DNA from: Geminocystis sp. NIES-3708
GTDB taxonomy: Bacteria > Cyanobacteriota > Cyanobacteriia > Cyanobacteriales > Cyanobacteriaceae
DNA length: 64,000 nt
Direction: 5' to 3'
Assembly: GCF_001548095.1 (NCBI RefSeq)
Contig: NZ_AP014815.1
Coordinates: 2,107,656-2,171,655 of the forward strand
The position numbers and the translations under genes are program-made. Below the pieces are notes generated by a model. It saw only the letters and a list, made by a program, of their open reading frames with translations, was not told the origin of the DNA and searched no databases. This document shows, piece after piece, positions 681 to 56,438 of this stretch (position 1 is its first letter; every line of letters starts with the position of its first letter).

Positions 681-811
681 TAAAAAAAAACCATGAAAAT
701 TATCGATCAAACTTAATCTTACACCTTTAGCAAATACTTGGGAATGAGAATTTATGTTCAATATTTAGCAGATGATTTATTTCCCATTAACTATACACTA
801 TTCACTAAAAT

Positions 812-1630
812 ATGCCTCACAGTTTAGTCATCAATTTTACACCTATTTCCGATATTCCTCTTGGTTATACTTCAGGGAAACATCTACACGGCTTATTTTT
901 TACCTTAGTTAATGCCGTCAATCCAGAATTAGCGGAATATTTTCATCAATCGGTGGCAAATAAAAGTTTTACGGTTTCTTCTTTACAGGTTATTAATAGT
1001 AATAAAAATCAAGATAAGTTTTTACAATGGCAACAACAAAAAACTGTCAAAAAAGGTAGTAACTGTTGGTGGAAAATCACATTATTAGATGATACTTTAT
1101 TTAGTCAATTAACCAAATTATGGCTTAATTTAAGACCAGAAAAACCCTATCATTTAGGAAGTGGAGACTTATTCATTACCAGTGTTTTAGCCAGTTCAGA
1201 TAGTCACCCTTGGGCGAATGCGATGAGTTATCAAGAATTGTTCGATCGAGCTTCGGAAACACAAAGAAATATCAACCTAAAAATATATACTCCCACAGCA
1301 TTTAGACAGGGGAAATATGATGTATCTTTACCTACTGCTGAATTAGTATTTAATAGTCTATTAAGGAAGTGGCAAAAATATAGTAATATCCCTTTTGATA
1401 ATATTAATTTTGAGGAATTATATCCGGCTTATTTTGACATAAAAACAGAAATAATTATCGATAATAAAAGTAAATTTATCGGTTGTATTGGTACTATCAA
1501 TTATAAAATTTTAGGAGAAATAGAAGCGATAAAAATTAAACAAATTAATACCTTAGCAGACTATAGTTTTTATAGTGGATTAGGGAGAAAAACGACCATG
1601 GGATTTGGCGTACTTAAAAGACTTAATTAA
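812..1630 (+). CDS. cas6: CRISPR pre-crRNA endoribonuclease Cas6
   Basis: 272 residues, normal for Cas6. The C terminus has the glycine-rich signature (GLGRKTTMGFGVLKRL, about residues 256-271) that binds the repeat RNA in RAMP folds. An N-terminal segment around GYTSGKHLHGLFF resembles the first ferredoxin-like domain with a candidate catalytic histidine (inference). Cas6 cuts each repeat of the array transcript, here expected to leave an 8-nt ATTGAAAC tag. It lies 131 bp after csc1 and about 60 bp before cas4, probably in one operon. Confidence 0.92.
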   Translation: MPHSLVINFTPISDIPLGYTSGKHLHGLFFTLVNAVNPELAEYFHQSVANKSFTVSSLQVINSNKNQDKFLQWQQQKTVKKGSNCWWKITLLDDTLFSQLTKLWLNLRPEKPYHLGSGDLFITSVLASSDSHPWANAMSYQELFDRASETQRNINLKIYTPTAFRQGKYDVSLPTAELVFNSLLRKWQKYSNIPFDNINFEELYPAYFDIKTEIIIDNKSKFIGCIGTINYKILGEIEAIKIKQINTLADYSFYSGLGRKTTMGFGVLKRLN

Positions 1631-1691: not shown

Positions 1692-2282
1692 ATGGAAAAT
1701 GACTTTATTTCTATTGCTTCTTTAAACCATTATTCCTACTGTCCTCATCGTTATTGGCGAATGTTTTGTGCTAACGAATTTGAAGATAATCAATATACGA
1801 TCGACGGTACAACTTTACACGATCGAGTCCATACAGTAGGCGATTTAAACTTAGGAGAAACATGGCAAATTAGAGCGATTTATCTCAAATCTGAACGGTA
1901 TAAATTAATCGGTAAAGCAGACTTAATTGAAGCAGAAAACGGTACTTTTTACCCTGTTGAATACAAGCGAGGTAAAAAAGGCGAATGGATTAATGATGAG
2001 TTACAAGTTGTCGCTCAAGCTCTTTGTTTAGAAGAAATGACTGATACTAATGTTCATACTGGTTATATTTATTACGCTCAAACTCATCAACGACAGGAGG
2101 TAAAAATTGATGATAATTTAAAAAAAGATGCGATCGTAATTATTAAAGCAATTCAAGAAATAAATCAAACAGGAAAGATACCAAAAGCAGTTTATAGCAA
2201 AAAGTGTAAAGGTTGTAGCCTTTATTCTGCTTGTCTGCCGATAGCCAACGACAAAGTCAACCGCTACCGAGAAAGTGAATAG
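1692..2282 (+). CDS. cas4: CRISPR-associated exonuclease Cas4
   Basis: 196 residues from the ATG at 1692. A longer reading from 1605 would overlap cas6 and add residues unlike Cas4. Visible motifs are the first Fe-S cysteine (YCPHRYW), the Asp of GKADLIE, the E-x-K of PVEYKRGKKG, the Gln of LQVVAQALCLEE, and the C-terminal cysteine cluster CKGCSLYSAC. This is the RecB-like nuclease with a 4Fe-4S cluster that trims prespacers and selects PAM-containing ends with Cas1-Cas2. The stop codon lies inside a heptamer-type repeat that begins the insertion before cas1. Confidence 0.94.
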   Translation: MENDFISIASLNHYSYCPHRYWRMFCANEFEDNQYTIDGTTLHDRVHTVGDLNLGETWQIRAIYLKSERYKLIGKADLIEAENGTFYPVEYKRGKKGEWINDELQVVAQALCLEEMTDTNVHTGYIYYAQTHQRQEVKIDDNLKKDAIVIIKAIQEINQTGKIPKAVYSKKCKGCSLYSACLPIANDKVNRYRESE

Positions 2283-2314
2283 TGAATAATTAATAGTGAA
2301 TAGTGGATAATTAA
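2274..2314 (+). repeat. Left inverted repeat of four-helix-bundle cassette
   Basis: Tract built from the unit AGTGAAT (agtgaatagtgaataatt and variants). It overlaps the cas4 stop codon. Its reverse complement recurs at 2743-2792, on the other side of the four-helix-bundle gene, so the gene is bracketed by inverted repeats. Confidence 0.75.
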
Positions 2315-2367
2315 ACAAATTAATAATCAATACTCTTTAGTCATTTTTGAAATTATAAACAAATAAA

Positions 2368-2736
2368 ATGGATAGTATTATTTATCAAAAAGCATATAAA
2401 TTTTCTTTAAGAATTATTAAAGCATATAGATATTTAATTGAAGAAAAAAAAGAGTTTATTTTATCAAAACAATTATTAAGAAGTGCTACATCTATTGGGG
2501 CAAATATTGCCGAAGCTAGTGGGGCAATTTCCAAAGCAGATTTTAGGCATAAAATGTCCATTGCTTACAAAGAATCACTAGAGACACAATATTGGCTTTC
2601 TTTACTCAAAGATTCTGAAGTCATAGATGTCAAAAGTTATCAAAGTATTAATCAAGATGCTGTAGAAATTAGCAAAATTTTATGCTTGATCGTAAAAAAT
2701 ACAAAAGCAAAAAATAATAAACAAGATACCAGCTAA
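2368..2736 (+). CDS. Four-helix bundle protein (S23/IVP family) inserted in the cas operon
   Basis: 122 residues. The core pattern (SKQLLRSATSIGANIAEASG, then FRHKMSIAYKESLETQYWL and a C-terminal helix) is characteristic of the family first seen in 23S rRNA intervening sequences and also represented by the Avd accessory proteins of diversity-generating retroelements. No reverse transcriptase or template/variable repeat pair was seen nearby, so an Avd role is unsupported. It separates cas4 from cas1 and is bounded by inverted AGTGAAT-type repeats at 2274-2314 and 2743-2792, suggesting a later insertion. Molecular function is unknown; the family is nucleic-acid associated. Confidence 0.85.
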   Translation: MDSIIYQKAYKFSLRIIKAYRYLIEEKKEFILSKQLLRSATSIGANIAEASGAISKADFRHKMSIAYKESLETQYWLSLLKDSEVIDVKSYQSINQDAVEISKILCLIVKNTKAKNNKQDTS

Positions 2737-2742
2737 TTAGCA

Positions 2743-2792
2743 TTAACTATTAATTATTAACTATACATTATTAACTATTCACTATTCACTAT
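2743..2792 (-). repeat. Right inverted repeat of four-helix-bundle cassette
   Basis: Tract ending in attcactattcact, the reverse complement of the repeat at 2274-2314. It ends 4 bp before the cas1 start codon, so it forms the cas1 5' untranslated region and may affect its translation. Confidence 0.75.
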
Positions 2793-2796
2793 AAAA

Positions 2797-3804
2797 ATGG
2801 GAACAATTTATATTACTCAAGATGATGCTTTTATTGGTAAAACTGATGAAAGATTACAAGTTAAAGCTGATAAAAAACAATTATTAGATGTACCTTTTAT
2901 CAAGATAGATGGTCTAGTAATTTTAGGACGAGCAAATTTTTCTCCTGCTATTGTCTCTGAATTATTAACTCGCAAAATACCTCTCAGTTTTTTAACAAGT
3001 ACTGGGAAATATTTAGGGAGATTAGAGCCAGAATTAACTAAAAATATTTTCATCAGAAAAGCTCAATGGGCAGTGACAGAAAATTCTCCAAAAGCTATTC
3101 ATGTTGTCAACGGATTTATTCGAGGTAAACTAAAAAATTATCGCAACTTAATGATGTTAAGAAATCGTCAAGAGTATCATGAAAAACTAGAAAGCTCGGT
3201 CGAGCAAATTCAACAAATAATTAAATCTTTAGATACTAAAAATAACATTAATTCTTTGAGAGGTTTAGAAGGTGCAGGAAGTGCAATTTATTTTAGTTGT
3301 TTTAATGATTTTATTAAAAATAATAACTTTAGTTTTAAAACTCGTAATCGCCGTCCTCCAACTGATCCAGTTAATTCTTTACTCAGTTTAGGCTATGCTT
3401 TATTAAGGCATGATATTCAAAGTGCGGTCAATATTGTAGGTTTTGATCCCTATTTAGGTTATCTTCATGTTGCTCATTATGGCAGACCTGCTTTAGCATT
3501 AGATTTAATGGAGGAATTTAGACCAATTATTACTGATGCGATGGTTTTAAATGTGATTAATAATAAAAAATTAACTCCTCAAGATTTTATCACTGAACCC
3601 ATCAGTAATGCTGTTTCTTTAACCAAAGAAGGACTTAAAATATTTTTAAGATCTTATGAAGAAAAAAAACAATCGAAATTTAAACATCCAGTTTTAAATA
3701 AACAATGTACTTACCAAGAAGCCTTTGAAATTCAAGCTCGTTTATTAGGTAAATATTTAATGTCAGAAACTGAACAATATACACCTTTAATCACTAAAAA
3801 ATAA
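2797..3804 (+). CDS. cas1: CRISPR-associated integrase Cas1
   Basis: 335 residues, standard length. The metal-binding residues are recognisable: the Glu of LRGLEGAGSAIYF, the His of YLHVAHYGRPALALDL and the acidic pair of LMEEFRP. The N-terminal beta domain begins GTIYITQDDAFIG. Cas1 forms the integrase with Cas2 that inserts spacers at the leader end. It starts 4 bp after the heptamer-type repeat and is followed 11 bp later by cas2. All key residues are intact, so adaptation should be functional. Confidence 0.96.
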   Translation: MGTIYITQDDAFIGKTDERLQVKADKKQLLDVPFIKIDGLVILGRANFSPAIVSELLTRKIPLSFLTSTGKYLGRLEPELTKNIFIRKAQWAVTENSPKAIHVVNGFIRGKLKNYRNLMMLRNRQEYHEKLESSVEQIQQIIKSLDTKNNINSLRGLEGAGSAIYFSCFNDFIKNNNFSFKTRNRRPPTDPVNSLLSLGYALLRHDIQSAVNIVGFDPYLGYLHVAHYGRPALALDLMEEFRPIITDAMVLNVINNKKLTPQDFITEPISNAVSLTKEGLKIFLRSYEEKKQSKFKHPVLNKQCTYQEAFEIQARLLGKYLMSETEQYTPLITKK

Positions 3805-3815
3805 TCATTATTATT

Positions 3816-4091
3816 ATGTATATAATTATTAGTTATGATATTACAGATAATAAAAGACGTACTAGAATTCATAACATTTTAAAATCTTATGGTGAATGGG
3901 TACAGTATAGTATTTTTGAATGTGAACTCACCGAAACACAATATGCAAAATTACGTCATCGTCTCAGTAAATTAATTAAAAAAGATGATAATGATAATAT
4001 CCGTTTTTATTTTATGTGTCGTTGCTGTCAAGGTAAAATAGAGCGTATTGGCGGTGAATTACCTAGAGATAATACTATGTTTTTTGTCTAA
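3816..4091 (+). CDS. cas2: CRISPR-associated Cas2
   Basis: 91 residues, typical. It begins MYIIISYDITDNKRRTRIH with the conserved Asp at the end of beta-1, followed by the VQYSIFECELT strand and a C-terminal RIGG segment. It is the structural dimer of the Cas1-Cas2 integrase. It is the last gene of the operon, immediately before the leader. Confidence 0.96.
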   Translation: MYIIISYDITDNKRRTRIHNILKSYGEWVQYSIFECELTETQYAKLRHRLSKLIKKDDNDNIRFYFMCRCCQGKIERIGGELPRDNTMFFV

Positions 4092-11240: not shown

Positions 11241-11297
11241 ATTTGACAGTATTAATTTATATATTTTAAAATTATTAAAAATAGAAGATTTGAGTCT

Positions 11298-11340
11298 TAA
11301 TTATTAATTGTTAATTGTTAATTGTTAATTGTTAATTATT
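11298..11340. repeat. Heptameric tandem repeat (TTAATTG)n
   Basis: Five or so near-perfect TTAATTG/TTAATTA units between leuC and the GUN4-like gene. Such short tandemly repeated heptamers are typical of cyanobacterial intergenic DNA. Confidence 0.8.
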
Positions 11341-56343: not shown

Positions 56344-56384
56344 CTATCCTCAACTTCCCCGATAATAATTGAATCGTTTAAAGT

Positions 56385-56438
56385 ATTCATTATTAATTAT
56401 TCATTGTTCATTAATTAATTATTCATTATTCATTATTT
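56385..56438. repeat. Heptamer repeat tract (ATTATTC/ATTGTTC units)
   Basis: ATTCATT/ATTAATT units in tandem directly before the 114-residue gene, of the same kind as at 11298-11340 and 53344-53381. Confidence 0.65.

Follow-up and report, generated by a model that had tools for sequence, protein, structure and literature searches.

The 23S rRNA of Coxiella contains an intervening sequence (IVS) in which an open reading frame (ORF) of the S23 family occupies the loop of a terminal stem, and upstream of this ORF lie tandem heptamers, GACAGAT, whose copy number varies among strains (PMC4990558). A Xanthomonas relative of S23, whose solved structure is cited in the same work (PMC4990558), is a toroidal pentamer. 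The family is homologous to the four-helix-bundle protein Avd of diversity-generating retroelements (DGRs) (PMC10053308), and 23S rRNA IVP was listed among the new associations of CRISPR adaptation modules (Altae-Tran et al. 2023; PMC10910872). Heptamer repeats have been treated apart from these proteins: TAACTGA direct repeats were described in Beggiatoaceae, Cyanobacteria and Bacteroidetes, with no evident mechanism of transfer, and in the Beggiatoaceae mostly sit just before start codons (MacGregor 2015; PMC4679880). A literature search covering few subscription journals yielded no paper connecting inverted heptamer tracts with S23 genes located elsewhere than in rRNA.

Here, an S23 gene situated between cas4 and cas1 of a cyanobacterial type I-D CRISPR operon is compared with these systems. 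With a probability of roughly 0.7, we take it for a single copy of a small cassette that is mobile and consists of a heptamer tract, the S23 gene and the same kind of heptamers in inverted orientation. This reading would give 'four helix bundle protein' genes, a large family, a shared genetic anatomy, and would unite in one testable system what has hitherto been described separately: the intervening sequences of rRNA, the scattered heptamers and a CRISPR gene linked to adaptation.

The S23 block of the type I-D operon

The stretch of DNA analysed, termed the window, comprises 64,000 nt of Geminocystis sp. NIES-3708. It opens inside csc1 of a type I-D operon with the gene order csc1, cas6, cas4, S23, cas1d and cas2, and a long CRISPR array follows 3' of cas2. 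The neighbours of the S23 gene were identified by profile as Cas6, Cas4, Cas1d, Cas2 and Csc1. The features are as follows.

787 to 806, minus strand: solitary heptamer tract in 3'-arm orientation, without an S23 gene, just 5' of cas6
812 to 1630, plus strand: cas6 (profile match)
1692 to 2282, plus strand: cas4, the upstream host gene, its C-terminus RESE* encoded by the tract (profile match, comparison with the sister genome G009)
2274 to 2314, plus strand: 5' arm, tandem heptamers of the TAGTGAA/AGTGAAT type, overlapping the last cas4 codons and the stop (Tandem Repeats Finder)
2274 to 2790, plus strand: whole block, predicted RNA stem with the S23 ORF in its loop (RNA fold)
2368 to 2736, plus strand: S23 (four-helix-bundle) gene, 122 aa (PF05635, TIGR02436)
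2742 to 2792, minus strand: 3' arm, inverted 5'-arm heptamers of the ATTAACT/TTCACT type (Tandem Repeats Finder)
2797 to 3804, plus strand: cas1 of type I-D, the downstream host gene (TIGR04093)
3816 to 4091, plus strand: cas2 (profile match)

An earlier sequence-only reading, made from the letters and a list of ORFs, had assigned the gene to the four-helix-bundle family, which is confirmed by matches of its product to PF05635 (3e-30) and TIGR02436 (2e-31). The closest solved structure by sequence is 2rld (5 chains), and the NCBIfam equivalog model of Avd, DivGenRetAVD, is not matched. To our knowledge, no catalytic site has been described for the S23 family. The S23 gene is the sole ORF between the arms, where neither a transposase nor an integrase nor a reverse transcriptase was found.

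The flanking tracts, too, lie where that reading had placed them (2274-2314 and 2742-2792 by Tandem Repeats Finder), and their inverted orientation is borne out by the pairing of 2274-2314 with 2750-2790, which yields 41-nt arms of 88% complementarity. As had likewise been described, one of them runs over the cas4 stop and the other adjoins the cas1 start: cas4 terminates at 2282 within the 5' tract, which encodes its final codons and stop, while merely 4 nt separate the end of the 3' tract from the cas1 ATG at 2797. Since the inverted flank-to-flank alignment score at this gene is 31, compared with a 99th percentile of 22 among 312 control ORFs, the bracket exceeds chance. In the predicted RNA fold, 2274-2312 pairs with 2752-2790 in a stem of ~38 bp that holds the S23 ORF in its loop (-103.7 kcal/mol, z = -4.3; an equally good fold in 0 of 100 shuffles). 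Comparable tracts are present at many further places in this genome, the one at 787-806 being an example, and a lone tract is therefore no marker of a cassette end. Further heptamer arrays without an S23 gene were noted in the window at 11297-11337 (TTAATTG x5.9) and 56384-56437 (TATTCAT x7.6).

G013, a genome of a different genus, carries an S23 gene at the same cas4|cas1 place. In the comparison with G013, dN/dS amounts to ~0.04 for S23 versus ~0.11-0.15 for the cas genes, which indicates that the S23 protein is under purifying selection, and the dS of S23 is similar to that of its cas neighbours. The shared site, the similar dS and the low dN/dS together argue that the filled allele is old and its S23 gene selected; judged by these values, S23 is a long-standing resident of this operon lineage.

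Heptamer arms as a general trait of S23 genes

Whether the arms are peculiar to this operon was addressed by aligning the 220 nt upstream of each S23 gene to the reverse-complemented 220 nt downstream of it, in a sample of 112 S23 loci from many phyla and with 312 ORFs of the same loci as controls. The median inverted score was 25 in the S23 loci, as opposed to 10 in direct orientation and 10 for the control ORFs. A score of at least 17 was reached in 95 of the 112 S23 loci versus 8 of the 312 control ORFs, two of these 8 being S23 genes themselves, and inverted pairs are more than 12-fold enriched around S23 relative to other ORFs of the same loci. An enlarged set comprises 122 distinct S23 genes of several phyla; 98 of them possess inverted flanks, and a clear inverted pair is missing within the 220 nt examined in the other 24. 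Such arms are also found in Bacteroidota, Acidobacteriota and Firmicutes.

The arms are built uniformly. A period of 7 was detected in 111 of 184 flanks, while any other lag from 4 to 13 occurred in at most one flank each, and arms of at least 4 units have a median length of 5.4 units. The units conform to the consensus C-A-[GTA]-T-N-A-[TA], roughly CAGTTAT, the rotation having been chosen against CAGTTAT, which favours that reading. The units keep the same polarity from locus to locus, by 54 to 3 in the 5' flanks and by 49 to 2 in the 3' flanks, and the 5' and 3' units of a locus agree in all or all but one of their 7 positions in 51 of 68 loci versus 19% for random pairing. Moreover, the heptamer tracks the protein: heptamer similarity grows with S23 protein similarity (rho 0.55, pairs below 75% identity). 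S23 rarely heads its own transcription unit, the arrangement of a divergent upstream and a co-directional downstream gene being found for 5 of 117 S23 genes versus 47 of 240 controls.

Beyond the arms, a pattern of three heptamer units was used to count tracts in 389 genomes from the order, 306 of which have a detected member of the four helix bundle family. The reversed pattern does not provide an independent control, as it is also matched by related heptamers in rotated, reverse-complemented form; counts were pooled and genomes compared instead. The median number of tracts, raw with respect to genome size, is 5, 25, 131, 191 and 315 for genomes with 0, 1, 2-3, 4-6 and at least 7 S23 copies, respectively (rho 0.52, 389 genomes), and where a genus includes genomes with and without S23, the S23 carriers are richer in tracts in 20 genera and poorer in 7 (p = 0.019). 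Tract-rich genomes without a detected S23 gene exist (e.g. G041, G050, G061), as do S23-bearing genomes with almost no pattern-matching tracts. Owing to these exceptions in both directions and to the raw counts, the correlation lends support to a link of tracts and S23 and is not proof of it.

Empty sites, unrelated sites and the CRISPR association

The block occurs at unrelated sites. Among 466 locus pairs with at least 78% nucleotide identity in S23, the distal flanks are unrelated on both sides in 217; many of the pairs stem from few genera and hence are not independent events. In the two alignments inspected, L179/L182 (98.6% identical) and L205/L252 (94%), similarity stops at the outer ends of the tracts.

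Furthermore, sites are empty in close relatives. The sister genome G009 has no S23 gene at its cas4|cas1 junction, which measures 84 nt versus 524 nt here. The two sequences are 98-100% identical over the 150 nt up to the edge of the 5' tract and ~98% identical from the cas1 ATG onwards; cas4 of G009 ends with the ancestral REEN*, whereas that of the window ends with the tract-encoded RESE*. The sequence-only reading had taken the joint absence of the gene and both tracts from related junctions as its criterion of insertion. The gene is absent from G009, but not strictly the whole block, given that a short heptamer tract still precedes cas1 in the empty allele. The reading had also called for a search for further genomic copies with the same flanks: a second S23 gene of this genome (contig 1, ~3,169,100), bracketed by inverted tracts of another heptamer, is placed between an ORF and a gene that, as read from its translation, is kaiB-like. 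In G009, this ORF and the kaiB-like gene are 27 nt apart with S23 absent, and a 94% identical S23 copy is located elsewhere in the genome. Filled and empty cas4|cas1 alleles coexist in the genus; in genus g33, the I-D operons of three species bear 0, 1 and 2 S23 copies. With regard to target-site duplications, relatives with an empty site are either too diverged or have a tract at the site. A block at unrelated sites combined with empty sites in relatives is what characterizes a mobile element, and the earlier proposal of a mobile unit inserted in an adaptation operon is largely supported by both observations.

As to possible vehicles, no S23 relatives were found in viral_contigs, two weak matches were obtained in phage records, and an S23 relative is present in 26 plasmid records, for the most part large replicons from Nostoc and its relatives; a phage or virus origin as the main vehicle was rejected on these counts. 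Ten identical S23 copies in G376 (C2, L233-L242), with a downstream arm of CTTCTGC-type heptamers, reside in one multiplied insertion sequence (IS), apparently between its transposase gene and right end. They were rejected as instances of S23 transposition, S23 being carried passively inside the IS.

Across the order, S23 lies within cas6-cas4-cas1 in 16 of 122 scorable I-D loci, always co-directionally, at cas6|cas4 in 14 cases and at cas4|cas1 in 3, G083 having both; a decayed copy is found upstream of cas6 in G012. At least one flank contains a period-7 stretch of at least 28 nt in 16 of the 17 I-D copies, and nearly all copies have inverted tracts, with units that differ by lineage (TAGTGAA, CAGGTAT, CAGTTAA, CAGATGA, CAGGTGA). 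Heptamer tracts are present at ~12-14% of S23-free I-D junctions. A tree of 121 S23 proteins, based on 120 columns and weak at its inner forks, requires at least three separate entries into the I-D operon. In addition, a type III-B CRISPR operon (L251; G065 C3:125000-128500) has, between its cmr2/cas10 and cmr3 genes, an S23 gene with inverted GGAGATA-like tracts. Elsewhere, the block adjoins hemE, nrdB, bioU, oppB, photolyase, MacB/FtsX, UDP-glucose dehydrogenase and other genes. A specific defence association of S23 was rejected, its neighbours elsewhere being mostly housekeeping genes.

Several I-D junctions display further peculiarities. L196 (G071) has an inverted pair of heptamer tracts with no gene inside at cas4|cas1, which may be the remnant of an S23 block after gene loss or a state preceding insertion. 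At the same junction of L201 (G005), the 3' end of cas4 is repeated in tandem as four copies of ~70 bp, together with a hairpin (TTTGTAGTAAGGGCTTTAGCCCT). In a decaying I-D locus of G009 (L198), cas6 and cas4 are separated by a protease-like ORF into which a transposase-like ORF is inserted, and cas1 is broken after about 160 codons, while L200 (G001) shows an in-frame TAG near the cas4 3' end (CSLY*ACLP) beside an intact cas1. In the Nostocales loci L244-L248, the 3' arm of S23 falls within an apparent extended N-terminal coding region of cas4, and the tract may be translated.

How these data are to be read depends on what the gene and the tracts each contribute. The tracts could be ordinary cyanobacterial short tandem repeats grown in intergenic gaps, next to which S23 lies by chance, and it is true that heptamer tracts are common in this genome and in the order, S23-free junctions included. 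Yet this is contradicted by the comparison with control ORFs, and neither the enrichment of inverted pairs, nor the fixed polarity, nor the matching of arms locus by locus, nor the arms of Bacteroidota, Acidobacteriota and Firmicutes would be expected of it, so that we consider it very improbable. Somewhat better placed, though still improbable, is a genuine accessory gene of CRISPR adaptation, recruited beside Cas4 to help spacer acquisition, with the tracts incidental. In its favour, S23 genes of at least three lineages are found in cas6-cas4-cas1 operons, where they run in the same direction as the cas genes in every case and border cas4 in almost every case; a further copy separates cmr2 from cmr3, purifying selection acts on the protein, and 23S rRNA IVP was reported among the adaptation-module associations (Altae-Tran et al. 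2023; PMC10910872). However, a fixed place in type I-D operons is not seen, with just 16 of 122 loci occupied at a variable junction; like blocks stand outside CRISPR beside hemE, nrdB, bioU, ABC-transporter and UDP-glucose dehydrogenase genes; and the period-7 stretches accompany 16 of the 17 I-D copies. The outcome that the sequence-only reading had named as fatal to an insertion, a tract-free gene conserved at cas4|cas1 in most I-D loci, was not found, as S23 is there in 3 of 122 and in cas6-cas4-cas1 in 16 of 122. Because of this low occupancy, the different junctions and the at least three lineages, S23 is neither an ancestral nor a specific cas gene, and because the block also lies among housekeeping genes, its CRISPR association is recurrent and not exclusive. 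By way of caution, the reported association of S23 with CRISPR may largely reflect the insertion of mobile blocks into operon seams.

Less easily dismissed, albeit unlikely in our view, is a passive block, moved only by IS elements or by homologous recombination between existing tracts, in which S23 would be a host gene of unrelated function. The ten identical copies within the IS of G376, beside its transposase gene, speak for it, as does the tract before cas1 in the empty allele of G009, a possible seed of recombination. Against it, the inspected mobile pairs lose similarity at the tracts and reveal no IS ends, the heptamer co-varies with the protein, and the number of tracts follows the number of S23 genes.

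Proposed mechanism and comparison with known systems

Such a cassette would settle at gene seams, very often inside operons where both neighbours are co-directional, directly behind the stop of the upstream gene and directly ahead of the start of the downstream one; since the tract carries stop codons, the upstream gene survives the insertion. The window S23 gene would probably be expressed as part of a cas transcript that reads through it, and in this mRNA the arms may pair into a long stem whose loop contains the ORF, which is the layout of 23S rRNA intervening sequences. We infer that S23 would bind the heptamer arrays, the pentamer contacting them as RNA or single-stranded DNA, and thereby drive copying or insertion, the complex being what moves and the scattered gene-less tracts being by-products. 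The block may in this way explain a scattered repeat family that so far lacked a source. The farthest-reaching version of this proposal, in which the S23 gene and its arms are the two components of a mobile system that is autonomous and uses no known transposase, is tentative, and we hold it to be possible and not probable: the pentamer would read one heptamer per subunit and copy the block into seams, the STRR and TAACTGA repeats would be its gene-less offspring, and rRNA intervening sequences one of its branches.

Compared with described elements, the window block combines familiar traits in an unfamiliar way. Insertion sequences and MITEs are mobilized by a transposase of their own or of a relative, while only the S23 ORF is present between the arms here. 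REP/RAYT systems (REPINs) resemble the block in having one gene between inverted copies of a genome-scattered repeat; they differ in that S23 is not a Y1 transposase and its repeat is a tandem heptamer array instead of a palindrome. Indeed, the window protein matches PF05635 only and not a Y1 (HUH) transposase. Unlike the Avd gene of DGRs, the block is devoid of a reverse transcriptase and of template and variable repeats, and has cas genes as neighbours; a simple motif scan of S23 loci found no RT-like ORFs, and PADLOC reported one RT match among 63 neighbours of S23 genes elsewhere. The TAACTGA repeats are nearer, as the dominant S23 arm unit, TCAGTTA, reads TAACTGA on the opposite strand, and those of Beggiatoaceae share with the S23 3' arms the position just before start codons; both they and the cyanobacterial STRR heptamers were, however, described as direct repeats without a link to S23.

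The closest known relatives of the block are the 23S rRNA intervening sequences. They differ from it in their location, the window block lying between protein genes of a cas operon (cas4 and cas1) and not in 23S rRNA, and 0 of 19 non-cyanobacterial S23 loci were situated inside an rRNA. They differ as well in that the arms of the window block are heptameric on both sides and its ORF is subject to purifying selection, in contrast to the decaying ORF of Coxiella. In common with the intervening sequences of Coxiella, Leptospira and Brucella, the block possesses an S23-family ORF (PF05635, 3e-30) looped out by a stem of terminal inverted repeats, which for the window is predicted, and the likeness extends to the repeat unit itself, the GACAGAT of Coxiella being a rotation of the CAGATGA found in G071.
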